From IMG/VR virus record IMGVR_UViG_3300005441_000005, positions 1-41,095 of that record: 41,095 bases of DNA. One strand, 5' to 3'. The stretch is from a virus. Positions 3,001 through 41,095 of the stretch are shown piece by piece. Position 1 is the first letter of the stretch. Every line of letters begins with the position of its first letter. The notes beneath the pieces are model-generated. The model saw nothing but the letters and a program-made list of their open reading frames with translations, was not told the origin of the DNA and made no database searches. Both the position numbers and the translations under genes were made by a program.

Positions 3001-5352
3001 TACATGTCCCGTGCCCCGATGTTCCGGCAGTTGGCGGTCAAAGAGTTTGACCGGCTCACCTCCCTTGGGTGGACGGCGAAGCGAGCGAAGGCAGCAGCTG
3101 AGTCCTACGCAGCGGAGACTACATCTCAGTGGATGTACAACCTGGCATCCAGGACGTCAGCCCAACACTTCCTCCGCAACATCATCCCGTTCTTCCCTGC
3201 GTACCAGGAGCTAGCGACCGTCTGGCTCAAGCAGTTGCCGGGGCGGTACGTGGCTGGTGTCGGCCACCTCTATTTCGCACGGCGGGCCGCCTTCTTGATC
3301 GCAGCATTTCGGGACATCGGCTTCATCAAGAAGGACTCCAATGGGCAGGACTACTTCACCGTGCCCTACTTGGACAAGGTATATGAGCACCTGACAGGGG
3401 AGAAGGGCGGTATCCTCAAGTTTCCGGTGTCATCAGCCGTCGGGATGCTGCCGGTCACACCGGACTCCCTGGTCCCCGCGCTGGGCCCTGCGCCCTCCGT
3501 GGCTCTCGCTCAGTTGGCAAAGCACAACGCCGTGGTCGAGGACATCGCTAACCTCGTGCTCCGCTACGGCAACGAAATCCAGATCGGGCCCACATCTTGG
3601 GACCACCTGCTCCACGCGGCGGGCGTCACCCCGCCGTGGGAATACCTGACGTCCGACACCCAGAAGCTCATGATGACGCTGGCCGTCGAGGACGCCATGC
3701 GCTCGGTGTCGATGGACATGCCGCCTGCGCCGGACCGCCTCAAGTTCAAGTCGCAGAAGGCGTACGAGGACGCGGCTAAGACGTGGAGCGAGGACTTGCT
3801 CGCACGAGCGCACAAGCGGGCTGGGGTCCACTACCTCATCCGCGGGCTCGCGGGGATGTTCCTCCCGACGTCCGTCCAGGTGACGAACAAATACGCCGAG
3901 GAGATGACCGGCATCTGGCGGGCCGTTGAGGCGTACCGTGAGGGCAAGCCGGACGATCCTTCCGCTGCCTCCCCGCTGATCGAGGCGTTCAAGGCCAAGT
4001 ACCCTGACGCCGTGTGGTACACCAACAGCAAGACGATCAACCAGGGCGAGCGCCGGGACTACGGGGACTTCGACAACTTCATCAAGGACTGGACCGAGGG
4101 CAAGGTCAAGGTCATGAGCCAGCAGGAATTCATTGACTGGAACCTGGGGATGACCGCGTACTGGCAGTACCTCAAGGACAACAAGCGCCCGACCAACGGC
4201 ATGTCCCCGCCCGAGATTCTCCGCAGCGGGTTCCAGATCAACGAGGAGAAGGCCTACGCCAAGGACGATTGGAGTACCTACCTGGCGACCCACAAGCAGT
4301 TCGCCAGTCTGTTCGACCAGTTCCAGAAGTCCTTTGACGACAGCGGACAGATCAGTAACACGCTGGCGACGGAGAAACTCATTGCTGTCAAGCAGCAGTT
4401 GGTCGCCCTCGACAAGTTGTTCACGACGGCGGGCATCCGGGATGCGGACTATCTCAAGGTCATTGGCAAGATCAGCGAGAACATCGACTATGTTGCGTCG
4501 AAGACAGACGATCCCCGCTGGCAGGCCGTCAACTGGTGGTGGGAGAACGTCGGCATCCCGACCTACTCCAAGATCGGGGACCTGTACGACAAGGCATTCA
4601 ACCTGCCTGCCCCCGAGCGTGGGCCCATCTTCGAGAAGATCAGGCAAATCCAGAACTCGATGAAGCCCGAGTCCCACAAGGGCGAGAAGTACCCGACGCC
4701 CGAAGAAGTATCATGGGGCCGGAAGAACGACAAGGAGCAGGCCCTTCGCAAGATGGAGTGGGTCACGATGCCGCCCGAATGGCTGACCCGCTTCGAGCGG
4801 AAGAAGGCGGGGCTGGGTGGCGGACCCGAGGTAGACAAGTTCTACACGTTCATCAACGACGGGCAGGCTAAACTCCGCCAGTGGGCTGCAGACAACTACG
4901 TCAGCACTTCGTCCAATGACTACAAGTTCAACGAGGACAGCCTGAATACCGCGATCCAGCAGTACGCTAAGGAGCACGGGCTGGACAAGTACCTGCTCTA
5001 CACGAAGGAGCCCGTGTTCCAGCGGATGCTCCTGGCGAAGCAATACGATGACAACCAGACCTTTGTCGCCATCGCGGCACAGGCCCGCCAGGTCTGGGAC
5101 CGGATCGCGGCTGATGGTCATTCACCAGCCGGGACCACACGCGAAGCACGCGAGGGCCAGGTCTGGCTGTTCCAGCAGATTGACCGGGCGCGTGAGATTG
5201 ACCAGGGCTTCGACAACCTCATGAAGCGGCTCGAACTTGCGACCGCTCCTTCGGGTCGGGACAAGGCTCCTGGCTACGAGATGTACTTCAAGGTGTTCTT
5301 CGACTACTTCGGCCCAACGCCGCAGTTGCCCAGTTCCTACTCCGGGAGGTAA
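1..5352 (+). CDS. Giant virion/ejection protein with ART-like and ParB-like domains (C-terminal 1,783 residues)
   Basis: This is the 3' part of the gene that starts at 39111; the frame enters at position 1 without a stop, giving 2,428 residues in all. Full-length numbering (first Met here at 79 = residue 672): an ART-like fold at about 779-825 (VRLFRG, then GDWF, then ISYVDVP; no clear catalytic Glu), a second ART-like fold at about 882-986 (VRLYRG, NWFT, ISYVDVP, EREFLL, so an R-S/T-E type set is present), and a ParB/sulfiredoxin-like segment at about 996-1063 (SEGFHRWMAARDLG, VPVRL). The rest is long, helical and without recognised motifs. Placement after portal and before scaffold, and the size, fit an internal virion protein ejected into the host, as in polyvalent phage proteins. 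The ART role, modifying host proteins or nucleic acid, is inferred from family knowledge. The codons at about 640-1030 differ from the flanks. Confidence 0.8.
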   Translation, partial: RAEAQARGITDAEGLLAAGEERTLGVMAQWAPNFDEHITKALAAARNPEDVHMVLISAMLGGISDPMQFDRIVQRLTNTGTELATLDKTIETRAELADQIHQMMLDMGWNGKADDASLSALNNEMKGITPPPLQEGMVRLFRGEGQGSTQSGDWFADNPTSAGRYGNQISYVDVPKEVAKIAQDEARAQGGVGYLLPPDVTARAQALGRGADTRMLPLSTVNKHADPELWNPTTSMGVSKLPPVPEGHVRLYRGHTTLKGKGLPEWVAKETEGARGNWFTDKLEHAKWYAERAPEGSISYVDVPRAEAEAARVSNLGGEALSFSRDPEREFLLSKERASGMQPLEVPKVGKLDKQEYDALKADIEANGIREPLEMDFDPETGKANMSEGFHRWMAARDLGLERVPVRLTEAPGTEGPVLGGTKLKDMVENFQALDKQVIAEDARRYELMAERLHLRSLVGTDDVTIPMRELPGRDLLKQMRRFAPPAERTTAEKFMAALARYPGGVTTKDLMRVMFGGEVQGRQAQRVAKKGEEFLENRAKEAFVRLGHVKQQLSGGRHIFMPLKEGRVVPQGQMADYVQQSLSAIRDHATLFGLADKDVQNLLAAYLNVSNREEWFNFIKRLWEDVADKSPFLDAEGRRTLRQTHDELMSERGSGYLHGDDEGFMIPRHTLDREIVDKQTGRNLRSGMPAFSADFMGNSMRLPPNEVMYEYLSATRRWTRGLRKRGKLGEVSSEAIQGARDVLNGFTYLWKSLILMGRMPFALLARLTGEQGFRMAALDLASYANHPLEWLKSMLVKGDYARFADSHAEFLGTLMDNYNDVHSFGRGMKVYRRGRAVLQPNDGRAYFNALSSVFRRRHISPETVKIMFRKDPVEVENWLRSEASGPTGQAIIENLEASSQGVIEGIKNMKAELELLTAGRNDLKGALHIGHALNESGKPIEVGSRAFGEFLEREYEAGRYKPPQFINARASEYAFGEGQSLAARFRDFAFNQFYSRPDVYMSRAPMFRQLAVKEFDRLTSLGWTAKRAKAAAESYAAETTSQWMYNLASRTSAQHFLRNIIPFFPAYQELATVWLKQLPGRYVAGVGHLYFARRAAFLIAAFRDIGFIKKDSNGQDYFTVPYLDKVYEHLTGEKGGILKFPVSSAVGMLPVTPDSLVPALGPAPSVALAQLAKHNAVVEDIANLVLRYGNEIQIGPTSWDHLLHAAGVTPPWEYLTSDTQKLMMTLAVEDAMRSVSMDMPPAPDRLKFKSQKAYEDAAKTWSEDLLARAHKRAGVHYLIRGLAGMFLPTSVQVTNKYAEEMTGIWRAVEAYREGKPDDPSAASPLIEAFKAKYPDAVWYTNSKTINQGERRDYGDFDNFIKDWTEGKVKVMSQQEFIDWNLGMTAYWQYLKDNKRPTNGMSPPEILRSGFQINEEKAYAKDDWSTYLATHKQFASLFDQFQKSFDDSGQISNTLATEKLIAVKQQLVALDKLFTTAGIRDADYLKVIGKISENIDYVASKTDDPRWQAVNWWWENVGIPTYSKIGDLYDKAFNLPAPERGPIFEKIRQIQNSMKPESHKGEKYPTPEEVSWGRKNDKEQALRKMEWVTMPPEWLTRFERKKAGLGGGPEVDKFYTFINDGQAKLRQWAADNYVSTSSNDYKFNEDSLNTAIQQYAKEHGLDKYLLYTKEPVFQRMLLAKQYDDNQTFVAIAAQARQVWDRIAADGHSPAGTTREAREGQVWLFQQIDRAREIDQGFDNLMKRLELATAPSGRDKAPGYEMYFKVFFDYFGPTPQLPSSYSGR

Positions 5353-15331: not shown

Positions 15332-16846
15332 ATGGCTTGGACGCAGGTACAGACCAAACCCTACGGGGAACACACGTCTGGGCCGAGCGGATCAGGCGGT
15401 CAGGTCAGTGCAGCCTCGTTTACCCTGACCTTCACTTCTACGGCTACGTCGGGGAACCTCCTGATCGCTGGCTGGTACAGCGAAGGTGATACTGTCAACA
15501 CCCAGGCGATCACCACGCCGACTGGCTGGACGCTCCTCGTGGCCGACACGGTAGCGCCGAAGGTCTACACGACGGCCATGTACTACAAGATTTCGGATGG
15601 CACTGAGACTGCCGTCACGTTTGCACTGGCATACGCCGCAATTGGGGCCGGAGAGTTTCGGGAGTATTCGGGCGTAGACACGAGCAGCCCGGTAGACAAG
15701 TTCGCCAACAACACGAGATTCGCAGCGGCTGACGCTAGCCTGGGGACCGTCAACTACACGAGTGCAACCGACCTGCCTGACTTCCAGGACGGACTGCACA
15801 TCGCCTGGTTCGCCGCCCGATCGGGTTCTTCGAGCAAGGCCTCGCTCGATACGGCCTACTCGAACACCGTGGGGCGAAACCTCCACGGGGCTACACTAGG
15901 TACGGAGTCACGCAACGGGACCTATACGGGTGTGACCACTTGCTTCTCGATGACCGAACGGACAAGCGGTACGGGAGGTGATCCGGGCCACCAGCAACGG
16001 GTCAGCGGTGGGTCTACCAACGCCAACCGTGGGCCCGGCATCGTCATCTTCAAGGCTTCGGGTGCCGCCAGCAACTCGCCGATGGCAGCCACCTCGGGGA
16101 CTGGCTCCAACCGCACCATTACCAGCAGCGAGGTTAGCACAGCAGCAGCAACGATCGTTGTCAACAAGCCCACGGGTACGGCCTCGGGGGACCTGCTCAT
16201 TGCCTGGATATGGTGGCTGACGTCAGCGGGGGTGGGCTCGGAGACAATGACCACACCGGCAACGGGGTGGACGAAGTGGGGTTCGACGTTCAACAAAGAC
16301 ACCTTCGACAACGACACCGCAGGTGGCACAGCGTACGCTGCTGAGGTCTACTACCGAGTTGCGGACGGGACCGAAGGAGGTAGCTGGACGTGGACGATTT
16401 CTGCCAGCAGCCGCCCCCGCGGGGGCATTGTCTGTGCCTTTATCGGCCCAGGCTTTACGGGCACCACTTGGCAAGGAGTAACGCCAAACGCTGACGCCCA
16501 CCGGCAATTGCAAGGGACTGCCTACATCAGCGCAGCGAAGCAGCAGTATTCTGGTAGAGGTAGCTGGACGTACAGACCCCTAAGCAACACGCTTTCGGGT
16601 AACGACGGCATGATCGGGGTACTCTCGATCTTCCAAGTCTCGGCACCGGATGAGACACTGATCGGTTTCTCCTCGTCTAGCACCAACTGGATTCAGGCAG
16701 CGGGTACGGGATGGACTAGTCTTGGTGGCACCAACTCCGCGAAGATGCACGTCCGCTATGGACCGGGGCTCGCAGGAGGGGACCACTGGGGCTGGTGGCA
16801 CTGGGCAGAAGGCTCTGACTCTAGTGATTCATGGGTGATGCACTGA
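15332..16846 (+). CDS. Tail fibre / receptor-binding-like protein with duplicated domain
   Basis: 504 residues, ATG right after the previous stop. Two homologous halves: about 1-245 and 246-504. Each starts with Ser/Thr-rich strands, then (S/T)GNLLIAGW or SGDLLIAWIWW, then TPTGWT or TPATGWT, then a Y(Y/M)(K/R)(I/V)(S/A)DGTE motif. Both halves look like carbohydrate-binding jelly rolls. Such Ser/Thr/Gly-rich duplicated proteins before the lysis cassette are usually host-recognition proteins. It ends in a TGATG overlap with the endolysin. Receptor unknown. Confidence 0.55.
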   Translation: MAWTQVQTKPYGEHTSGPSGSGGQVSAASFTLTFTSTATSGNLLIAGWYSEGDTVNTQAITTPTGWTLLVADTVAPKVYTTAMYYKISDGTETAVTFALAYAAIGAGEFREYSGVDTSSPVDKFANNTRFAAADASLGTVNYTSATDLPDFQDGLHIAWFAARSGSSSKASLDTAYSNTVGRNLHGATLGTESRNGTYTGVTTCFSMTERTSGTGGDPGHQQRVSGGSTNANRGPGIVIFKASGAASNSPMAATSGTGSNRTITSSEVSTAAATIVVNKPTGTASGDLLIAWIWWLTSAGVGSETMTTPATGWTKWGSTFNKDTFDNDTAGGTAYAAEVYYRVADGTEGGSWTWTISASSRPRGGIVCAFIGPGFTGTTWQGVTPNADAHRQLQGTAYISAAKQQYSGRGSWTYRPLSNTLSGNDGMIGVLSIFQVSAPDETLIGFSSSSTNWIQAAGTGWTSLGGTNSAKMHVRYGPGLAGGDHWGWWHWAEGSDSSDSWVMH

Positions 16847-17658
16847 TGATTCAATACGAGATTGACGCAGCAGGCTGGTTCAAGTCGATCAATGGGCGAG
16901 CCGTCATCAAGATCGACCTGTCCGCCATGTCGCACACCACGTTCGCCATGTTCGCCCCGAATGGGTTGATATGGCACTACACCGCTTCGTGCAACGACGA
17001 CACGAGCGGGGGCATCAAGGCCCGTGGCTACCTGACCCACGCCCTGACCGTGGGCCGGGACGGTACGGTGCGGCAGTACGCGCCTCTGTTGGAGGCTGCC
17101 TCGCACGCCTACGACGCAGCGCGGTACAAGGTAGGCGTAGAACACACGGCTCTCCCTGGCTCCTGTGACCTGACGGACGTGCAGCTACAGGCCAGCGCGG
17201 AGTTGTTCGCCGCTGTCATCATGGAAATCAAGGTGCGGATCGGTGTGACCGTACCACTCATACACGTCCCAGGCTGTGACTACAAGAGCCCTGGTCTAAA
17301 GGAGCACAAGGATGGGGTCGGCTGTGACTGGGACCCCAACACCCACACGGACGCGCTCTACGGATGGGGCTGGCCCAAGTACCTCGCCGCTATCGCAGCG
17401 GCCATGACTCAGGAGGAAGACATGCAAGACTTCATCGCAGGGTCTAGGGCCCGCCAGCAAGACCTGCCCCTCGACACGACGAAGAGTGCGGAGTGGCAGT
17501 TCGGCTGGTTCATGGAGAACAGGATCGAGAGGGCGACCACGCTGCCCAAGCCTACGCCCAGTAGCGGGGTGAGTAAGGCCGACTTCGACGCACACGCGGC
17601 AGACCCAGCGGCACACCACTCGCACGCTGCCGTGAAGCATCCGGGGGCAACGCCGTGA
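16846..17658 (+). CDS. Endolysin, N-acetylmuramoyl-L-alanine amidase type
   Basis: 270 residues from the ATG in the TGATG overlap at 16846; an in-frame ATG at 16831 is possible but would overlap the fibre gene more. An amidase_2/PGRP-like catalytic domain spans about 25-185: WHYTAS (first zinc His, residue 44), a TVGRDG turn, VGVEHT, and the LKEHKDGVGCDWDPN segment that supplies the second His (about 154) and third ligand. It cuts the bond between MurNAc and L-Ala in peptidoglycan. The C-terminal tail (about 190-270) is Ala/His/Pro-rich with no obvious wall-binding domain. No signal peptide, so export needs the holin. Confidence 0.8.
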   Translation: MIQYEIDAAGWFKSINGRAVIKIDLSAMSHTTFAMFAPNGLIWHYTASCNDDTSGGIKARGYLTHALTVGRDGTVRQYAPLLEAASHAYDAARYKVGVEHTALPGSCDLTDVQLQASAELFAAVIMEIKVRIGVTVPLIHVPGCDYKSPGLKEHKDGVGCDWDPNTHTDALYGWGWPKYLAAIAAAMTQEEDMQDFIAGSRARQQDLPLDTTKSAEWQFGWFMENRIERATTLPKPTPSSGVSKADFDAHAADPAAHHSHAAVKHPGATP

Positions 17659-20089: not shown

Positions 20090-20669
20090 TGAGCATCCTC
20101 CTCGCCACCCCCACAACGGCAGGCCAGCCCTCGACTCTCATGCTGGGTGAGAAGTCAAAGTAACCTCGGTTCCACTCACGCCCGAACATGATGACGCTGC
20201 CCACGTCCGCCAACTCAATGCAGTTCTGGGGCTTGTCTTCGATGTACAGATTGAACGCAGGCTTGACAGCAGCCTTGGGTTCCTGGTGCGTCAGGAGGTG
20301 GACCCCACGCAGCGGCAACTTCATGAACGACAGCCAGCCGAGGGTGTCCTCGACGGCATTCGCCGGACGGTGGGTGATAACCTCGATGTCCGCGAACCGA
20401 GACAGTTCACGGACACCGTTGATCGCACCCCTGACGACGTGGCCATAGCGGAAGAGCCCTAGGCGCACGCCCTCGGACCACAGCCAGTTCCAGGCTGCCG
20501 GGGGCACACAGTCCTCGACGTAATCCCAGGAGCGGGACTCCTCCTCTAGCAGACGCCGAACGTAGGAGGTCATGGGCACGGGGCAGACCTCACGCAGCAT
20601 GTAGCGAGCAGTCTTGTCCCACTCGTACACAACTCCGTCGAGGTCTAGCCCCACACGCGCCCGTGACAT
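20079..20669 (-). CDS. HAD-family 5'(3')-deoxyribonucleotidase-like phosphatase
   Basis: 196 residues from the ATG in a TAATG overlap with the protease gene. HAD motif I is GLDLDGVVYEW (nucleophile D9, acid/base D11), motif II is VITHRPAN, and the acidic motif near the end is YIEDKPQNC, followed by VIMFGREWN. The insertion between motifs I and II is helical, as in NT5C-type nucleotidases. It would dephosphorylate (d)NMPs. Next to the diphosphohydrolase it could finish dNTP breakdown or salvage. Length is usual for the family. Confidence 0.7.
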   Translation of the reverse strand: MSRARVGLDLDGVVYEWDKTARYMLREVCPVPMTSYVRRLLEEESRSWDYVEDCVPPAAWNWLWSEGVRLGLFRYGHVVRGAINGVRELSRFADIEVITHRPANAVEDTLGWLSFMKLPLRGVHLLTHQEPKAAVKPAFNLYIEDKPQNCIELADVGSVIMFGREWNRGYFDFSPSMRVEGWPAVVGVARRMLNAD

Positions 20670-21442
20670 TACCGAACCTCGTCCACGATGCCGCCTCGCA
20701 GGCACTCGTCCGAGGACAGCCACCAGTCCTTGCGCTTCCAGTTCGTTTCCAGCGTCTTGCGAGAGAACGGCTTGCCCGCTGTCCCCTCCTCCGCCGCGGT
20801 CTTCGTCCGCTCTGCGAAGATGTCGAGGATGCGGCCCTGGATGCGCTTGAGCCACTCAATGCGGTCCTCCATCTGACCCATCGAGCCCATCATCCCAGCC
20901 TGAATCTCGTGGATCAGGACCCACGCCTCCTTGCCGACCCAGCGGGTGTTGCCCGCCTGCAGCAAGATGCCCGCCATGCTGGCAGCCATGCCAAGGGAAC
21001 CCGTGGTGACGTGGATACCCTCACGCTTGAGAATCTGGATGAAGTCGTACAGTTCGAGGCCATCGATGACCGACCCTCCCCCAGAGGAGAAGATGATCTC
21101 GATGTTCTTCGCGCCAGTACGACGCCAGATGTTCAACTGCTTGACGCACTTGTCCACGCTGCCAGCGTCCACGCTACCCGTGAAGTGGTAGACGTGGTTG
21201 TACTTGTCGCTGGCGTTCGTCTCCGCGTGGAGACGGGCGATGGCGTCACGCTCCAACTTGGCGACGGCCAGCACAGTCTCCAACTGGTCCGCCTCGAAGT
21301 CAGCCTTGCGAGCCTCAGCCTTGAGCTTGAGAATCTCAGCCTCAGACTTGGCCTGTTCAAGTTCAATCTCCTGCTCAAGTTTGCGGGTTTCCGCTTCCAC
21401 CTTTCGCAGTTCCTCGGTAGACAGTTCACGCTTGTCAGTCAC
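20669..21442 (-). CDS. ClpP-like serine protease with N-terminal coiled coil
   Basis: 257 residues. Residues 5-75 form a heptad-like Glu/Lys/Leu coiled coil that ordinary ClpP lacks. The peptidase fold follows: SSGGGS oxyanion loop (119-124), nucleophile S155 in GMAASMAG, H178 in VLIHEIQAG, and D239 in KDWWLS, so the triad is complete. Phage ClpP-like proteases usually mature heads, but this gene lies in the early unit among nucleotide and recombination enzymes. It may therefore act on host or regulatory proteins. The coiled coil could recruit a partner or substrate. It overlaps genes on both sides. Confidence 0.8.
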   Translation of the reverse strand: MTDKRELSTEELRKVEAETRKLEQEIELEQAKSEAEILKLKAEARKADFEADQLETVLAVAKLERDAIARLHAETNASDKYNHVYHFTGSVDAGSVDKCVKQLNIWRRTGAKNIEIIFSSGGGSVIDGLELYDFIQILKREGIHVTTGSLGMAASMAGILLQAGNTRWVGKEAWVLIHEIQAGMMGSMGQMEDRIEWLKRIQGRILDIFAERTKTAAEEGTAGKPFSRKTLETNWKRKDWWLSSDECLRGGIVDEVR

Positions 21443-26242: not shown

Positions 26243-26433
26243 CAGTCCTCCTCCGTCTCAGTCGTAGCCATGAACCCGCTAGAGGCCCACTGTTCCAGGG
26301 CTTGCTGGTCCTCCTTGTACTTCTTGACGTTGAGCCAGTAGCGGACACGCTCACGTCGAGACATCTTGTTGAGGCTAGCGAGTACACTACCCTCTGCCTC
26401 ACCGTAAGGTCCTAGTTGCAAGAGGTCAGTCAT
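26242..26433 (-). CDS. 63-residue hypothetical protein
   Basis: The start at 26433 follows AGAGGAAC; a longer frame up to 26469 lacks a ribosome site and would overlap the HTH gene further. The peptide begins MTDLLQLGPYGEAEGSVLAS and continues as a basic helix (MSRRERVRYWLNVKKYKED) with an acidic tail. It overlaps both neighbours. No family recognised. Confidence 0.5.
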   Translation of the reverse strand: MTDLLQLGPYGEAEGSVLASLNKMSRRERVRYWLNVKKYKEDQQALEQWASSGFMATTETEED

Positions 26434-26677
26434 CTTCTGTTCCTCTCTGGGTAAGGCGTTCGACAGCATCGTCTATCTTGTTGAGTGCTTGAACGCTGAC
26501 GTTGTGTAGTTTGTTGTTGAGTACCCTTGTCAGGTAGGAGCGTGAGACTCCTAGTTCTTCCGCTACCTGCTGGTAGGTGAACCCGCGATTCAGGATCATG
26601 AGGCGGAGGTGCAGCACCCGGTAGGCACCGACAGGATCAGCCTCAAGATGCGCCTGGAATGCTGCCCTGTTCGCCAT
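26426..26677 (-). CDS. XRE/Cro-type HTH regulator
   Basis: 83 residues from the ATG at 26677 with GAGGAGGAAC directly upstream. A helix-turn-helix lies at about 30-60: FTYQQVAEELGVSRSYLTRV, followed by LNNKLHNVSVQALNKIDDAV, which is the usual Cro-like recognition-helix plus dimer layout. It is the only clear transcription factor in the leftward unit, and is too short to have a LexA/CI-type protease domain. It might act on the control region at 34.3-34.7 kb, alone or with host LexA. That link is inference. Confidence 0.7.
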   Translation of the reverse strand: MANRAAFQAHLEADPVGAYRVLHLRLMILNRGFTYQQVAEELGVSRSYLTRVLNNKLHNVSVQALNKIDDAVERLTQRGTEDD

Positions 26678-26685
26678 GTTCCTCC

Positions 26686-27309
26686 TCATGCGTGGTACTT
26701 GCCCGAGCCCTTTGCACTGGGCGACCACAGTTTGGGCGGTCCGAGGATACCAAGGTCTAGCATCCGCTGCCGCATCTCGATGTGCTGCTCGACGTCACCG
26801 ACCACCCGCTCTTTGGCGAGCATGATGCCCTCCAAGAGTAGCATGTTGGCGTCGGCCCACTTGCCGGTGTTCATGCCCACCTTGTCATGCGACAGGCCGA
26901 GCATGGCACCGAGGTTCTCCTGCGAGGTCGAGAGGCCCTGCCTCTTGACCATATCCAACTTCGTGTCCTGGCTCATCTTAGGCGACAGGCCTGGCGCACC
27001 AAGGCGCATGAGTGCGCCGTTGAGGAGCGGCAGGTCGAAGCCCCTGATGTAGTGCCCGGTCACAATGTCTGCCTCGTCGTACGCCCTGCGGAAGTCCGCC
27101 AACATCCAGCGTTCCTCGAGGAGCACGCGCTCATTATCCCCTGATCCACCGATCCAAGCCACGCTAGTCGGGCCGGGTTCACCGATGAATTTCCAGGCAA
27201 TTAGCGTCGGCTGCTTAGTAACGAAGTCCCCTCCGTACCAGGCCAATGGCCTGCATTCGCAGTCGAAATCGAGGATGCGTGCGCCCTTGCCACCGAAACG
27301 GGCGTTCAC
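26686..27309 (-). CDS. RNase H-like 3'-5' exonuclease
   Basis: 207 residues, GTG start in a GTGA overlap. DnaQ/PolB-type exonuclease motifs: Exo I ILDFDCEC (D16, E18), Exo II TGHYIRGFDLP (D92), and Exo III ERVVGDVEQH (D172). SQDTKLDM follows the middle strand as in PolB exonuclease domains. There is no polymerase domain, and no polymerase elsewhere in the window. It probably trims 3' ends during replication or recombination, or degrades host DNA. It sits between the HTH regulator and small early genes. Confidence 0.7.
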   Translation of the reverse strand: MNARFGGKGARILDFDCECRPLAWYGGDFVTKQPTLIAWKFIGEPGPTSVAWIGGSGDNERVLLEERWMLADFRRAYDEADIVTGHYIRGFDLPLLNGALMRLGAPGLSPKMSQDTKLDMVKRQGLSTSQENLGAMLGLSHDKVGMNTGKWADANMLLLEGIMLAKERVVGDVEQHIEMRQRMLDLGILGPPKLWSPSAKGSGKYHA

Positions 27310-30605: not shown

Positions 30606-30782
30606 CTATTGCCTCCCGCTCATCTTGTCAGCGTGTCGTTGGGTAGCCTTGTCTGCCGTCTCTTTGGCAAGGCGTCGATGGACTAGGTACTTGTTGAGTG
30701 CAGCCATGCGGGGTACGAATCCTCGCTTACCATTGAGGTCAATCTGGTCCTGCAATGTCCACGGGCTAGAAGTCTTCGACAT
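30606..30782 (-). CDS. 58-residue basic protein
   Basis: ATG at 30782, overlapping the end of the phosphatase gene by 17 bases, with GGGGTGGAG just before it; stop TAG at 30606, three bases before the next start. The peptide is basic and helical (MSKTSSPWTLQDQIDLNG, then NKYLVHRRLAKETADKATQR, ending MSGRQ). It exactly fills the gap between two longer genes and falls below common length cut-offs. Function unknown. Confidence 0.5.
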   Translation of the reverse strand: MSKTSSPWTLQDQIDLNGKRGFVPRMAALNKYLVHRRLAKETADKATQRHADKMSGRQ

Positions 30783-31926
30783 CACTCCACCCCTTCTTGT
30801 ATTCTTCTACCGATTTCTGGTAGTCGTCTATCATGGTGGCTACCATTTCACGGTGGCAACCGCCGTGCTCCTCGGGCTCGCACTGGTCGGCGTACTGGCA
30901 GGGCGGGAAGGCACAGAGGTCGTCGTTCTTCCGTGACTGCGCCTCCCAGTTGCGAATGCTGGTGCCTTGTTTCTCCCACTCTTCACGGGAGCACAGTTCC
31001 CAGTCGCCGTCGCTGTTCTTCGCCATGAACTGCCAGCCCATCGTGCCGTCTTTCTGCCTGCCCCACCAGGGCTGGACGACATCCTTTGCGGAGTCGCTAT
31101 CGTCGTGCTCCTCTAGCCACTGGTCGAGTAGTTGCTGCTCGTCCCTGAGTAGGACTGCGCCGGTGTCGTCAGTGAAATCCGTACGGGGTACGGTCGGGCG
31201 AGACGAGGTGACTACCGTACCACTCTTGTTCGAGGTGGTGGTGTACCCGTTGCCCTTCCACGAGTCGGCCCGCAGTTTGTTGAGCAGGGTGTACTCATCG
31301 GGCATCGGCTGACGCTGATTGACTTCCATGTCGAACGCCACGAGGTAGTTCACCTGTCTCGCTGTCTCGATAGCCTCTTGGCAGTATTGGGTTCGGACTT
31401 TGTTGACTGCCTGAGCGGCGGTCAATCCTTGTGCAATGAGAATGGCAGCAATGAGCGTGCCCGTCCTACCGTGGCCGCCGAAGCAACCGATTTCTACCCG
31501 CTCACCCTGCACAATCTGGGTGAGCATCCACTTCACGAGGGTAACGAACTCTTCCATGTCGTCGGGCACGGACATGTCAGCCCACGGATACATCACGTAT
31601 CGGTGCTTGCCACCGGGGAACGGGAGGTCAATGCCCGGTGTAGCAAGCACGCCTGTCTGTTCCCACAACCTGTCGAGGTACACCGACAGGGTTTCGTAGC
31701 GCACCGCTAGGCTGTTGTTCTTGTGCTTCGGGCGGTCGGCGTAGCCAGAGGCGATGAGCGTAAGCCCGTTCTCCAACTGTACGAGGTCGCGCCAGTGCGA
31801 GCAGTCGGCCCAAGCGTAGGTACTGTACGACGTAGCCTGTTGCTTAGGCGCTGCTGCCTGCGGCTGACCGGGCTTGGACTTCTGGCCCTGCCGCCGAAAC
31901 TGTCTGCCTTTATGACGTCGGGCCAT
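30766..31926 (-). CDS. Protein tyrosine / dual-specificity phosphatase-like protein
   Basis: 386 residues. The PTP signature CX5R(T) is present as GCFGGHGRTG (C148, R154). The general acid is D117 in YPWADMSV, and the spacing between them fits a cysteine phosphatase. The N-terminal 30 residues are basic and disordered. After about residue 225 comes a separate region: Ser/Thr/Asp-rich linker, WWGRQKDGTMGWQFMAKN, and a Cys cluster (LCAFPPCQYADQCEPEEHGGC) that may bind metal. It could dephosphorylate host Ser/Thr/Tyr kinases' targets or a nucleotide-like substrate. It overlaps its neighbours. Confidence 0.7.
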   Translation of the reverse strand: MARRHKGRQFRRQGQKSKPGQPQAAAPKQQATSYSTYAWADCSHWRDLVQLENGLTLIASGYADRPKHKNNSLAVRYETLSVYLDRLWEQTGVLATPGIDLPFPGGKHRYVMYPWADMSVPDDMEEFVTLVKWMLTQIVQGERVEIGCFGGHGRTGTLIAAILIAQGLTAAQAVNKVRTQYCQEAIETARQVNYLVAFDMEVNQRQPMPDEYTLLNKLRADSWKGNGYTTTSNKSGTVVTSSRPTVPRTDFTDDTGAVLLRDEQQLLDQWLEEHDDSDSAKDVVQPWWGRQKDGTMGWQFMAKNSDGDWELCSREEWEKQGTSIRNWEAQSRKNDDLCAFPPCQYADQCEPEEHGGCHREMVATMIDDYQKSVEEYKKGWSDVEDF

Positions 31927-33763: not shown

Positions 33764-33825
33764 TGAACCCTGCCCGTAGGTGTGGTGCCCGTGTGACCGA
33801 TTGCCTGACACGAGAAGCATAGCAC

Positions 33826-33895
33826 CCGTGCCCGGTGGCCGTCAAGTCAGCCATTTGGGGGACACGGCGGGAGTCGAACCCGCCGTGCCCGGTGG
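33826..33895 (-). other. T-arm-like hairpin ending in CCA, with 13-bp direct repeat
   Basis: On the minus strand GGCGGG-TTCGACT-CCCGCC forms a perfect T-arm with the conserved loop, followed by GTGTCCC and CCA as in a tRNA 3' end (about 33856-33890). No pairing 5' half with a normal anticodon arm was found; upstream is coding sequence. The string CCGTGCCCGGTGG occurs at 33826-33838 and 33883-33895. A tRNA remnant or tRNA-3'-end mimic is possible. Confidence 0.35.
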
Positions 33896-33898
33896 AGC

Positions 33899-34255
33899 CT
33901 AGTCGGACAGTAGCCCGACCGATTCGAGTCCGCTACCGTAGCGGATCGTGCCGACCTTAGGTGCGCGGACGGGCGTAGCCTCGGAACGTGCCGCCGAACG
34001 CGAACCCTTGCGCGTAGGACCGTAAATGTCGCGGACCATGCGCCCGGTGATACCGACATCCCCGATGAAGTCCCGAGTCTCGCGCCCGTCCGCCTTGATA
34101 CGGGGACGTGCGGTGACTCGGACCTCAGGGACGTTCGGGCCGAACGTACCGTTGCCAGCGTAGACTTTCCCGGAGGGAACCCGCGAACCTTTTGGTTCGA
34201 CGTGATACCGCCGGACCTCCGCCCTGGCGTCGGCACGTCGGGAACGAATTCCCAT
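33899..34255 (-). CDS. First leftward gene: 118-residue basic protein
   Basis: The ATG at 34255 is chosen because GGGAGG lies seven bases upstream; the longer frame to 34459 runs through the operator region without a site. The protein is basic and Gly/Arg-rich (MGIRSRRADARAEVRRYHVE; KADGRETRDFIGDVGITGRM; GPTRKGSRSAARSEA). As the first gene after the leftward promoter it would be made earliest. That position suits a host-takeover or regulatory protein, but no family is recognised. Confidence 0.5.
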   Translation of the reverse strand: MGIRSRRADARAEVRRYHVEPKGSRVPSGKVYAGNGTFGPNVPEVRVTARPRIKADGRETRDFIGDVGITGRMVRDIYGPTRKGSRSAARSEATPVRAPKVGTIRYGSGLESVGLLSD

Positions 34256-34319
34256 GATCGTGCCTCCCGTGTAACCGATTGCCCGGTGAGCCGTGTGGCC
34301 CGGCGGGTGAAGCGGGGCC

Positions 34320-34348
34320 ATCGTCCTCCCGTGGGCCGATTCTGTCAA
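34320..34348 (-). promoter_or_regulatory. Leftward promoter
   Basis: On the minus strand a consensus TTGACA (34343-34348), 17-bp spacer and GACGAT (34320-34325), about 65 bases before the first leftward gene. The first LexA-type box (34365-34378) lies 16 bp upstream of the -35. The -10 is imperfect. Confidence 0.5.
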
Positions 34349-34364
34349 GAGGCAGGCACGAAAG

Positions 34365-34378
34365 CGAACGCACGTTCG
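34365..34378. promoter_or_regulatory. LexA-type box 1
   Basis: CGAACGCACGTTCG, outer half-sites GAAC/GTTC spaced by four, followed by A. It lies just upstream of the leftward -35, 26 bp from box 2. Confidence 0.6.
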
Positions 34379-34390
34379 AGCGAGGACGGT

Positions 34391-34404
34391 CGAACGCGTG
34401 TTCG
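34391..34404. promoter_or_regulatory. LexA-type box 2
   Basis: CGAACGCGTGTTCG, with flanking T and A at 34390 and 34405 giving the full 16-bp mycobacterial-type form TCGAAC-N4-GTTCGA. Confidence 0.65.
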
Positions 34405-34464
34405 AGCCCGTCCGTCGATCGTGCCTGACGTCCGTCCGCCTTGTCCCAGTTTGCCCCAACTACA

Positions 34465-34478
34465 CGAACGTATGTTCG
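34465..34478. promoter_or_regulatory. LexA-type box 3
   Basis: CGAACGTATGTTCG, followed by A. It stands alone between the two promoter regions, about 74 bp from box 2 and 144 bp from box 4. Confidence 0.6.
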
Positions 34479-34505
34479 ATCGGCACGGGCATCCGGCAGT
34501 CGGCA

Positions 34506-34584
34506 GGCACGGGAGGCACGGGGCCAGCGGGGCACAGGCACGAGCAGGCACGAGCAGGCACGGCGGGCTAGGTTCACAGGCACG
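34506..34584 (+). repeat. GGCACG iteron cluster
   Basis: GGCACG starts at 34506, 34515, 34537, 34547, 34557 and 34579; the middle three are an exact 10-bp tandem CAGGCACGAG. Further copies lie at 34355, 34482, 34688 and 34732. Helically phased repeats beside the switch resemble iterons bound by an initiator or regulator. Confidence 0.5.
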
Positions 34585-34602
34585 GGCCAGGCATGGTACG
34601 GT
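34573..34602 (+). promoter_or_regulatory. Rightward (late) promoter overlapped by LexA-type box 4
   Basis: TTCACA (34573-34578), 18-bp spacer and TACGGT (34597-34602), followed by CATAGTAG. Spacing and flanks match the scaffold/capsid promoter at 7037-7066. The expected start site falls at about 34609, inside box 4. It points to the terminase gene 360 bp downstream. Confidence 0.6.
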
Positions 34603-34608
34603 CATAGT

Positions 34609-34622
34609 AGAACGCACGTTCG
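34609..34622. promoter_or_regulatory. LexA-type box 4 at the rightward start site
   Basis: AGAACGCACGTTCG. The core GAACGCACGTTC is identical to box 1. It begins seven bases after the -10 of the rightward promoter, the classical position for a repressor operator. Confidence 0.6.
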
Positions 34623-34637
34623 GAGAACAGGGTTAGT

Positions 34638-34651
34638 CGAACAGTTGTTCG
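34638..34651. promoter_or_regulatory. LexA-type box 5
   Basis: CGAACAGTTGTTCG with flanking T and A (34637-34652), a full TCGAAC-N4-GTTCGA match, 29 bp after box 4 and so on nearly the same helical side relation as boxes 1 and 2. Confidence 0.65.
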
Positions 34652-34969
34652 ATGTCGTGCCTGGGAGGTAGAAGGCAGGCAGGCAGAGGCACGGGCAGGC
34701 AGGCAGACCCTCCGACTCTCGTGCCCCCGCAGGCACGACGCCCCGGTCAGGCGGGGGGGGACTAAGCCGAGGTATGTGTGTGTAGTGTGTTGTCTGACCA
34801 GCACTTTCCCTGAAATCAGTTCCAGGAGGCCCCGGAACAGGGGGCTAGACCCTCCACCTACCCTGACCTGCAGGAATAGGCTCTCATTTCCGCCCTCATT
34901 TCCCTCGTTTCCACTGGGCGCGAAACCGCAGGCCAGGGCATTGACGCCGGAAGCGAGAGAGGAAGCGGA

Positions 34970-36835
34970 GTGCCCACAGATCAGAGGACACATGACCTCA
35001 TGGCCTGGGGGCGGCGTTCCAGAGCACGGCTGTTCGAGCGGCTAGGCCATACACGCCCCAACGAGGTGGAGTGGTGGCCCGAAGTCCAGGACGGGCTGCG
35101 CCGGAACTACTCGATCACCGACATCTCCAAGGCTCTGCAGTTCTCGGAGCGCCGGGTACGCCAGATCATCGCCACCGGGAGGGCACCTGACTCAGAAATC
35201 CCCCGCAGACAGGTCAAAGAAGAGGACCAACCACTAATAGACTGGTCCGTAGACGCTTTCGCAGCCTTCTTTGAACGGTTCTCGGGAAAGAAGTTCATGC
35301 CTCACTTTCGTCCTTGGGTAGAGGCCTTCCTCCGCGAGAGGAACTTGATCCTCAACGTCCCCCCAAGGCACGCGAAGAGCACGATCTTCTCCCTCTGGCT
35401 CCCGATCTGGCTCATCTGCAGGGACGTCAACGTCCAGATCATCCTGGTTTCCAAGACCGGGGGGTTCGCAAGGACGTGGGCGCGGGGTATCGCTGACCAG
35501 TTGACGCTCAACCAGGACTTGATCGAAGCATTTGGGCCCTTCGCGCCCGACGTACGAGGGAAGATTCCCTGGAAGCCGAACTCTGGCGAGCTAATGGTCG
35601 TCGGTAGGACCAGGGACACCAAGGGTCCGCAGCTAACGATCCAGTCCCGCGGGGCGATGCAGCAGATTCTGGGGATGGAAGCGGATTTCGTCATCATTGA
35701 CGACCCTACGGACCAAGGGGTGGCCCGCGAGGAGGTAGCACGGAAGCACGAACTCACCTGGCTCCGCGAGCAGGTGCTCACGAGGCTGCAGCCCGGAGGC
35801 CGCGCCGCCGTAATCATGCAGCGGGTCCACATGAACGACCTGTCGGGCACGCTCTCCGCGCAGATGGTGGAGTTTGGGGCTCGGAAGGGGTCGCCGCTCT
35901 GGCATCTAGAGAGGTATCCCGCCGTCCTGAACTGGGACACACAGGAAGTCCTCTGGCCCGCGGAGTACGATGAGGCGGGCAACCACATCTCCGGCTGGTC
36001 GTTCGAGGAACTCATGGCCTCCTACGAGCGGGTCGGTGGCCGCGAGGCATTCGAGACGCTGTACCAGCAGAACCCGATGCCAGAGGGAGGGTCCACGTTT
36101 GACCCAGCCCACATAGAGGCTTCCCGCGTAGATCGCCCTGGCTGGCAGGGCGTCCGCTCTGTGGACAACGTGAGTAAGGTTTCGCGGGTTCTGAGCCTCG
36201 ACCCAAGCCCGTCGCAGTACAACGGGTGGGTCCTAGGGGACCTGCACTTCAACAGAGAGAACTTCCGCTTCGACGTAATGGGGGCGTGGCGGACGAAGGC
36301 CGGTAGCTTGTCCGCCCTCATGGCTGACGTCATCCGAGTCCTAGACGAATACAAGCCGGACTACTTCATCTTCGAGGAGTCTGGATTCGGGCGATGGTTC
36401 TACGACGACCCGGCGTACTACCGGGTCAAGGATCAGGTCAGCTTCGTACGACACAAGACTACTGGCATCTCGAAGCACCACACCGAGTACGGATTTCGCA
36501 GTATGGCGGGGGACTTCGAGATGAACCGGATCACTCTCCCCGCGGGGGATCAGGTGGGCCGGGACATGACGGATGAGTTGACCCGAGAACTCGTCACTTG
36601 GCCGGACGGCCAGCTAGACGACATCGGGATGGCTCTGTGGTTCATCAAGTACAACTGGCTCAAACTCCGCCCGCGGATGGAGTTTACGGGTCGGATCAAG
36701 GGGACACCCGAGGTCACGATCGGCTGGCGTCAGAAGTACACGGAGAAGGAAGACATGTACGCTAAGGTCAAACGGCTTCGAGAGGCCGCGATGAGGGAGG
36801 ATACGCCTGATGGCACCCGGAACTTCAACGTCTGA
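34970..36835 (+). CDS. terL: Terminase large subunit with N-terminal HTH
   Basis: 621 residues, GTG with AGAGGAAG upstream. Residues 46-70 form a helix-turn-helix (SITDISKALQFSERRVRQII), unusual at the front of TerL and probably doing the DNA-recognition job of a small subunit, which is not seen as a separate gene. ATPase: Walker A VPPRHAKST at 130-138, Walker B VIIDDP at 241-246, coupling motif QRVHMND at 284-290. Nuclease: D411 in LSLDPS, E469/E470 in FIFEES, and a late Asp pair in QLDDIG. It packages DNA into procapsids. The portal gene overlaps its end by 26 bases. Confidence 0.9.
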   Translation: MPTDQRTHDLMAWGRRSRARLFERLGHTRPNEVEWWPEVQDGLRRNYSITDISKALQFSERRVRQIIATGRAPDSEIPRRQVKEEDQPLIDWSVDAFAAFFERFSGKKFMPHFRPWVEAFLRERNLILNVPPRHAKSTIFSLWLPIWLICRDVNVQIILVSKTGGFARTWARGIADQLTLNQDLIEAFGPFAPDVRGKIPWKPNSGELMVVGRTRDTKGPQLTIQSRGAMQQILGMEADFVIIDDPTDQGVAREEVARKHELTWLREQVLTRLQPGGRAAVIMQRVHMNDLSGTLSAQMVEFGARKGSPLWHLERYPAVLNWDTQEVLWPAEYDEAGNHISGWSFEELMASYERVGGREAFETLYQQNPMPEGGSTFDPAHIEASRVDRPGWQGVRSVDNVSKVSRVLSLDPSPSQYNGWVLGDLHFNRENFRFDVMGAWRTKAGSLSALMADVIRVLDEYKPDYFIFEESGFGRWFYDDPAYYRVKDQVSFVRHKTTGISKHHTEYGFRSMAGDFEMNRITLPAGDQVGRDMTDELTRELVTWPDGQLDDIGMALWFIKYNWLKLRPRMEFTGRIKGTPEVTIGWRQKYTEKEDMYAKVKRLREAAMREDTPDGTRNFNV

Positions 36836-39111: not shown

Positions 39112-41095
39112 TGTCTGATCCTTACGAAGACCAGACGGCTACAGACAACGGGATGACGAAGGAGCAGGAGAAGTTCGTCGGCAACTTCTTCGTCCCCGAC
39201 CCCTCGTATACCCCCGATCCCTACCAAGCACAGTCCCAGACAGCGAATCCCGTAGACCAGTGGGTCTTCGGGGAGTACCTTGGGTCCAAGGTCCAGGCCA
39301 TGCGCCCGCTGTCGGATAAGATGATCGTGTCTGGGGCGGACACTCACCTGTGGACTACGGTGAACCCACAGCAGTTGTTTGGCATCGCGGGTAGCGAGGC
39401 AGCCAACTGGTTCGAGAGTCTCTACGGGGGCGACATCTCCCCCTGGCTTGAGGCTGCGCTGATCCAGGACAAGGACAAGCGGGACCAGGCGTACGCCCTA
39501 CTCACCACGAAGGACCAGGCGAAGGGTGAGATTGGTCAGGCTCTCAACGAGAAGGCCTCCAACCTGGGGCTGACGGGCATCTCCGCCCGCTACGCTGCGA
39601 CCACCGCGTTCCTCGCTTCACGACGGGACCGCGAGGAGAATGGCAAGGTCCTATCGAACTACGACTACGATCAGGTCCTTACGCCCCACGAGCAGTTGCT
39701 CTTGACCGAAGCCGTCCGCGCCTCTGTCAATCCCGCTGGGATCGGCGAGCGGGCCCTGCAGGTCCTCACTCCATTCTCTACGGGCAAGGTGAGCAACTCC
39801 ATCGTGCGCGTCGAGCCCGGCTCTACTGACTTCGCGCTGGACGAGGAGTGGGCGAAGGCTCACCCTGTCAAGGCCCTAGCGGCATCGAAACTCCTGCAGG
39901 AGTACAACCCCGGAGCCAACGTCCGCATCGGGGAGAACGGGGTCGTGTCCAACGTCCTCAACGCTGCAGGCCGCCCGATCGACTGGGTATCCGGCCCCAT
40001 CGCCCTGGCCTACCGCTACGCCGCCCGTGGCTTCGGAGAGATGGGCGAGTATGGAGCCGTTGGTGATAGGTCACAATACTTGAAGCAGGCGAACCAGATC
40101 AAACAGGACATCGCCAGGGGCCTCTACGACCCGACCGAGATTCCTGCTGCCATGCAGGACTACGAGCGGTTCCTCGACTGGGGAACGCCTGGGAACATCA
40201 ACAACCAGGGCGAGTCGTTCAGCGACACGATGCACGACACCTTCATGCCCGAGGTCGGGGGCTGGGGGCTGGCACAGACATCAGCCGATGCCATCGGCCT
40301 CCTCCCTGGTGACCCCGCGTACGGGGCATGGACTACGGCTGTCGGCCTGATCCACAACTTCTCGTCCCTCGACCCGCTGGGGTGGGCGGGTGCAGCCAAG
40401 CAGGCGAAGGCCCTGGCCGGGCAGGTCCGTGGGGTCGAGACTGAGGTCCGCAAGGCCGCTACCCTCAAGGGGCTGCAGGCCGCGGCCAAGCCGGTGGACT
40501 ACCTCCGGGGTCGGAACTGGGCCATCATCGGCTCGCACCTGGACAACCTGACGTACGCCGAGAACGAGGCCCGGCACCAGGAACTCCTCCGTATCGCGCA
40601 GCAGTTCGCCACGAAGAAGGGCTACGATGTCACCCAGGTTTCCACGGCACAGGGCCCGAGGGTCATGATCCTGGGGATGCGGGGGGATGAGGCCCTCGTC
40701 ACCGCCCGCCACTTCGAACAGGCCTCCTTCCACACGGCGGACGGCCTCGTCCACACCAACCGGACCATCACCCCGTTCGACTGGGGCCTGTCCGGCAAGA
40801 CGTCGGCGGCAGCCGCTGACGCCTTCAACATCACGATGCCCAACAAGTTCGAGAGCGTGAACTTCCACATCCCGGCTGACGCCAAGCCCGTGAAGTTCGC
40901 CCCGCCTCGCGTCTCCTCTAACTGGATGACGCAGCACCTCTTCTCCAAGATGTACCGCACGCCGGACGAACTCCTCTACGGGGACCAGGCCGTCGATGCC
41001 GCACGCCAGATTTACGACACGATCAAGACGGCCCGCTCGATCGGCAGGGCTGAGGCCCAGGCCCGTGGGATCACGGATGCCGAGGGGCTCCTGGC
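39111..41095 (+). CDS. Giant virion/ejection protein (N-terminal part, continues at position 1)
   Basis: ATG at 39111 in a TAATG overlap with GGAGG nine bases upstream. The frame is open to the end of the contig and, since 39111-41045 is exactly 645 codons, continues in frame at position 1 to 5352, giving 2,428 residues. This N-terminal part is Gln/Ala-rich and mainly helical, with WFESLYGGDISPWLEAALIQ near 100, IDWVSGPIALAYRYAARGFG near 285-304, and no recognised enzyme motif. It is likely stored in the capsid and released with the DNA, as the large core proteins of T7-like phages are. Confidence 0.85.
   Translation, partial: MSDPYEDQTATDNGMTKEQEKFVGNFFVPDPSYTPDPYQAQSQTANPVDQWVFGEYLGSKVQAMRPLSDKMIVSGADTHLWTTVNPQQLFGIAGSEAANWFESLYGGDISPWLEAALIQDKDKRDQAYALLTTKDQAKGEIGQALNEKASNLGLTGISARYAATTAFLASRRDREENGKVLSNYDYDQVLTPHEQLLLTEAVRASVNPAGIGERALQVLTPFSTGKVSNSIVRVEPGSTDFALDEEWAKAHPVKALAASKLLQEYNPGANVRIGENGVVSNVLNAAGRPIDWVSGPIALAYRYAARGFGEMGEYGAVGDRSQYLKQANQIKQDIARGLYDPTEIPAAMQDYERFLDWGTPGNINNQGESFSDTMHDTFMPEVGGWGLAQTSADAIGLLPGDPAYGAWTTAVGLIHNFSSLDPLGWAGAAKQAKALAGQVRGVETEVRKAATLKGLQAAAKPVDYLRGRNWAIIGSHLDNLTYAENEARHQELLRIAQQFATKKGYDVTQVSTAQGPRVMILGMRGDEALVTARHFEQASFHTADGLVHTNRTITPFDWGLSGKTSAAAADAFNITMPNKFESVNFHIPADAKPVKFAPPRVSSNWMTQHLFSKMYRTPDELLYGDQAVDAARQIYDTIKTARSIGRAEAQARGITDAEGLL
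41046..41095. repeat. Terminal direct repeat (right copy)
   Basis: Identical to 1-50. See the left copy; the unique genome is 1-41045. Confidence 0.95.

Follow-up and report, generated by a model that had tools for sequence, protein, structure and literature searches.

We have found that a virus genome, IMG/VR record IMGVR_UViG_3300005441_000005, carries five palindromes of the form GAAC-N4-GTTC in one non-coding region, and their sequence supports well the view that they have LexA-type specificity and are putative SOS boxes of the actinobacterial type. The window we analysed is the whole virus contig, 41,095 nt in length, and the palindromes lie in a 714-bp gap between a leftward and a rightward gene unit. 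The best reading of the sites, to which we give slightly better than an even chance, is that host LexA would bind them and block the rightward structural and lysis unit until the SOS response begins; what recommends it is the combination of LexA-type sites, their position at a predicted promoter, the absence of an integrase and an S24-type repressor, and a likeness to the Bacillus tectivirus GIL01.

The palindromic feature is real and correctly located. The preliminary description of this DNA had reported five GAAC-N4-GTTC palindromes within 290 bp, two of them of the full form TCGAAC-N4-GTTCGA, and all five are present (cores at 34366, 34392, 34466, 34610 and 34639; full sites spanning 34364-34652), with no further copy elsewhere in the complete genome. 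Box 2 (34390..34405, TCGAACGCGTGTTCGA) and box 5 (34637..34652, TCGAACAGTTGTTCGA) are the two perfect 16-mers, box 1 (34364..34379, GCGAACGCACGTTCGA) and box 3 (34464..34479, ACGAACGTATGTTCGA) each have one mismatch to the full form, and box 4 (34608..34623, TAGAACGCACGTTCGG) has two. That the cluster is a functionless accident appears to us a negligible prospect: in 100 dinucleotide shuffles of the window the mean was 0.64 sites and the maximum 2, so that none reached five, and when the non-coding gap alone was simulated 20,000 times, no trial gave more than 2 sites, the counts being 0, 1 or 2. All that speaks for chance is that distant relatives do not conserve the sites.

The fit to known LexA sites is close. 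Gram-positive LexA recognizes the consensus CGAACRNRYGTTYC with a spacer of the form RNRY (PMC2248561), and the five sites match the sequence of this actinobacterial and Gram-positive class of boxes (CGAACRNRYGTTYC or TCGAAC-N4-GTTCGA). Nine of the ten half-sites read CGAAC; the spacers (GCAC, GCGT, GTAT, GCAC and AGTT) follow R-N-N-Y in all five boxes and RNRY in four, the exception being box 5, with RNYY, which nevertheless differs by a single base from the SOS box of M. tuberculosis dnaE2. A whole-genome scan with a LexA position matrix, the check proposed in the preliminary description, used a matrix built from the published sites of S. venezuelae (PMC9380542, Table 1) and M. tuberculosis (PMC8607333, Table 1). 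The five boxes took ranks 1 to 5, with scores of 22.9 (box 5), 22.7 (box 2), 19.4 (box 3), 16.3 (box 1) and 13.8 (box 4), and the next best site in the genome scored 13.2; known M. tuberculosis sites score 19.5-25.1 with the same matrix. Because the best site in simulated genomes scores 13.2 on average (19.7 at most), box 4 taken alone is at background level, and it is notable for its place. An alternative matrix, from lexA promoters of a sample labelled by phylum, was dropped in favour of the published sites, having failed because the sampled group of MAGs does not use the TCGAAC-N4-GTTCGA motif.

We also looked at viral sequences more widely. Among the matches listed, a control pattern of the same composition was as plentiful as paired CGAAC-N4-GTTCG boxes, and the scan therefore provides no evidence of viral enrichment. 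The box clusters seen in other viral contigs are mixed, comprising tandem 21-22-base repeats and gut phages with boxes ahead of several genes. In two contigs (L134, 1207-1354, and L031, 811-911) LexA-like palindromes sit in iteron-like tandem arrays of 21- or 22-base units, so not every LexA-like palindrome is a lone SOS box. Two low-GC contigs (L058 and L084) hold 20 and 16 GAAC-N4-GTTC sites, some ahead of short genes, and these are perhaps a promoter-associated operator of a different phage group.

The arrangement of genes around the boxes bears on what they might control. The first and last 50 bases of the window are identical (1-50 and 41046-41095), which indicates that the map is complete and circular, with a length of 41,045 bp; the junction is crossed by one open frame of 2,428 aa, whose counterparts in two relatives (G005 and G006) are genes of 2,014-2,051 aa. 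The rightward unit (plus strand) opens with the large terminase (34970..36835), the first gene downstream of the boxes, continues with the portal gene (36810), passes through the junction and runs to an amidase endolysin (16831..17658, plus strand) close to its end. The N-terminal segment of the terminase is HTH-like (34970-35190), as it is in relatives, and we saw no separate small terminase gene in this genome or in theirs. The leftward unit runs on the minus strand from 34255 down to 18423. Its first gene (33899..34255, minus strand) encodes a 118-aa protein that matches no known family, and further leftward genes encode a primase-helicase (22592), a RecB-like exonuclease (24662), an RNase H-type exonuclease (26686), a small XRE/SinR-type HTH protein of 87 aa (26426..26689, minus strand) and a ClpP-like protease (20669-21442), which is 37-40% identical to mycobacteriophage proteins and is present also in one relative (G001). 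A protein with a tyrosine/dual-specificity phosphatase domain (30766-31926) is likewise among them.

Between 34200 and 35000, a scan of both strands for promoters of the TASVKT type gave a single match, the rightward TTCACA-18-TGgTACGGT (34573..34602, plus strand), in which TTCACA at 34573 and TACGGT at 34597 are separated by 18 bases and an extended TG precedes the latter. Its predicted start, at about 34609, falls inside box 4, as had been proposed; relative to that start, box 4 covers approximately -1 to +15, including +1, and box 5 approximately +29 to +44. Such matches occur in the genome at a background of 0.74 per kb per strand, which makes the rightward promoter moderate evidence, and the boxes can be said to lie at a promoter-like sequence of moderate strength. 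The leftward side agrees less well with the preliminary description, in which box 1 abutted a leftward -35 element: a perfect TTGACA, read by eye (34343..34348, minus strand), does stand ahead of the first leftward gene, but 15 bases separate it from box 1, and it is paired with a poor -10. A more convincing leftward promoter, TTGACG-18-TATGCT (33816..33845, minus strand), lies beyond the first leftward gene, where it could serve the remaining leftward genes; it is outside the box region, so that the boxes need not control most of the leftward genes.

If the host LexA reading is correct, LexA dimers would bind the five boxes, and those at boxes 4 and 5 would block RNA polymerase at the predicted rightward promoter, such that intact LexA keeps the unit from terminase to lysis switched off. 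RecA activated by DNA damage, or by single-stranded DNA arising from phage replication, would then stimulate LexA self-cleavage, lifting the block and allowing particle production and lysis. Boxes 1-3, which are further off, might raise occupancy or act leftward. We infer rather than observe the identity of the host, the binding of LexA, the repression and its trigger. Counting against host LexA control are the relatives, at 32-53% terminase identity, that do not have the boxes, the moderate strength of the promoter call, and the distant boxes 1-3, which would be superfluous for a simple block.

Phage GIL01 provides the closest precedent. There, tandem boxes bound by LexA together with gp7 keep the late promoter P3 repressed, and after damage P3 requires gp6, a truncated LexA homologue (PMC6182141); the early promoter, P1, carries a box whose centre is at +17 (PMC4551915). 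The comparison with GIL01 made in the preliminary description is sound in this respect, P3 being blocked by LexA-gp7 at tandem boxes much as boxes lie over the predicted rightward promoter here. In both phages LexA-type boxes lie in tandem near the start of a promoter for structural and lysis genes (a predicted promoter in the present case, with terminase as the first gene downstream), and in both an integrase is not needed. The two differ in that GIL01 is a small, membrane-containing tectivirus maintained as a linear plasmid, whereas the present phage has a 41-kb genome encoding terminase and portal; and GIL01 encodes gp7 and the LexA homologue gp6, whereas we find here an XRE-type HTH protein, five boxes and, among the proteins scanned, no gp6-like LexA domain.

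The proposal that the small HTH protein is a partner like gp7 is not supported, the analogy failing in one respect. GIL01 gp7 alone does not bind DNA (PMC4551915), whereas the 87-aa protein has an XRE domain by Pfam, closest to SinR/SlrR, and so a DNA-binding domain of its own. This protein is instead the basis of the main rival explanation, in which a phage product, likeliest this HTH protein (26426-26689) or else the 118-aa product, binds the palindromes and operates an early-to-late switch independent of SOS. We regard this as a serious alternative, though the less likely one. In its favour, the phage does encode a small DNA-binding domain, the only regulator-like protein found (no LexA DNA-binding domain is present among the proteins scanned); both the boxes and the HTH protein are missing from the six long relatives searched, as would be expected of a co-evolving pair; and relatives have different short repeats at the corresponding place. 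We note, however, that SinR operators carry GTTC outward in inverted repeats, with sites of the form GTTCTYT (PMC3163267), which is the opposite of the polarity in the boxes. The boxes accordingly do not form a SinR/XRE-type operator array, we rejected the idea that the HTH protein reads GTTC by virtue of its likeness to SinR, and that likeness does not explain the boxes. Moreover, no GAAC-N4-GTTC site lies near the HTH gene, and the boxes have exact LexA specificity and differ from one another in spacer and flanking bases, as LexA sites do, rather than being near-identical operators.

A comparison with relatives shows how restricted the boxes are. Profile scans of IMG/VR brought up about 30 terminase relatives, with identities of 32-53% and none higher, and a repeat terminase scan with tighter alignment gave nothing above 53%. 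In none of these approximately 30 relatives do GAAC-N4-GTTC sites cluster upstream of the terminase, where the LexA matrix gives scores of at most 12.1; in the complete or long relatives almost all of the best matrix sites score within background, and they form no cluster. Relative G006 has one strong box (33843, score 16.6), which was set aside as within background, the null maximum being 17.5. The boxes are thus a lineage-specific cluster that the phage family as a whole does not conserve.

The gap holds other elements that suggest a further alternative. A second class of repeats, AGGCACG/CGTGCCT, occurs in 12 copies between and around the boxes (34259..34737), out of 14 in the genome, a number that exceeds that of any 7-mer in shuffles of a 1,200-base stretch; three copies (34536, 34546 and 34556) are spaced by exactly 10 bases. 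Some relatives have single copies of CGTGCCTAGCTT in the region corresponding to these repeats. Upstream of the terminase is an element (34753..34830, plus strand) that consists of GGTCCATAAAAG followed by a sequence like TGTGTAGTGT and is common to many terminase relatives, in which it lies 150-800 bases upstream of terminase; a profile built without the window finds it as the sole match in the window (nhmmer E 0.012). It is possibly a late promoter or packaging site, and may mark a rightward start other than that at about 34609, a point against the host LexA reading. The region could accordingly be a replication origin or packaging site at which the palindromes and the 12 AGGCACG copies bind an initiator or the HTH-like N-terminus of the terminase, an explanation we consider improbable. 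The AGGCACG array, with three copies 10 bases apart, the neighbouring terminase with its HTH-like segment and the conserved element beside terminase in many relatives are all in keeping with it. The boxes themselves are not: their spacing is irregular (26, 74, 144 and 29), unlike that of iterons, they are missing where the conserved element occurs, and AGGCACG is a better candidate for such sites. A tRNA-like element (33861-33952, minus strand), with T-arm GGTTCGACTCCC, a correctly spaced CCA and a weak match to tRNA-Sec, stands directly past the first leftward gene, and a similar one is found in another relative (L143) near 4165-4245; it is possibly an att relic, a terminator hairpin or a tRNA mimic.

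The preliminary description stated that the genome encodes no CI- or LexA-like repressor and no integrase, and six-frame domain searches of the complete genome indeed found neither an integrase (PF00589, PF00239) nor an S24 peptidase of CI/LexA-type repressors (PF00717), an absence that is meaningful because the genome is complete. The S24-type cleavable repressor and integrase of a classical temperate phage are therefore both lacking, and ten relatives that were searched likewise gave no integrase. A search of about 85,000 genomes turned up no close terminase relative, the best match having 28% identity, and plasmids yielded no close relative either. Nothing in the phage family points to integrated lysogeny, and a plasmid-like carrier state is possible; the earlier suggestion that damage triggers lysis in the sense of induction of a lysogen thus finds no backing. 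Terminase, portal, primase and ClpP-like protein have their best matches, among those with stated hosts, in phages of Actinomycetota (Streptomyces, Microbacterium, Gordonia, Arthrobacter and Mycobacterium), all at low identity, from which we infer that the host is probably an actinobacterium; the LexA of Actinomycetota recognizes the motif seen in the boxes. It is conceivable, if rather unlikely, that this is a virulent or carrier-state tailed phage, without its own integrase or repressor, whose late genes are held back chiefly by host LexA, a form of SOS-gated lytic timer or deferment; that single-stranded DNA born of replication, or damage to the host, would then set the time of particle production is a suggestion we make with equal reserve.

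Switches under LexA control have already been described in a few phages; among the relatives of the present phage, none has the boxes. In S. venezuelae, prophage genes are bound by LexA and strongly induced by damage (PMC9380542). The boxes described here share the TCGAAC-N4-GTTCGA sequence of the LexA regulons of M. tuberculosis and S. venezuelae, but those regulons concern host or integrated prophage genes, usually with 1-3 sites per promoter, whereas here there are five in a free phage genome. Cluster A actinophages likewise have several repeated sites, the stoperators, but these are asymmetric, occur throughout the genome and serve as targets of a phage repressor, whereas the present boxes are palindromic and confined to one region. 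The actinobacterial tectiviruses WheeHeim and Forthebois are without such LexA sites (PMC6950372), and we found no known system with five boxes over 290 bp, which also counts against host LexA control. Host regulators are used by other, virulent phages that have no lysogeny genes, namely Spo0A by phi29 and CtrA by phages of Alphaproteobacteria, the latter described as lytic deferment (PMC9437464). As in those phages, sites for a host regulator would lie in promoters and lysogeny genes are not evident, although phi29 and the CtrA phages use other regulators, whose binding has been demonstrated.

If host LexA does control the late unit, this phage would add another independent example of the damage alarm of a host being put to use by a phage, here in a lineage that encodes terminase and portal and gives no indication of lysogeny, and would broaden the kind of sensing seen in GIL01, phi29 and the CtrA-controlled phages. 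The phage makes it possible to ask directly whether the SOS response can set the time of lysis where there is no lysogeny, and such control would be relevant to the effect of DNA-damaging antibiotics on phage output in actinobacteria.
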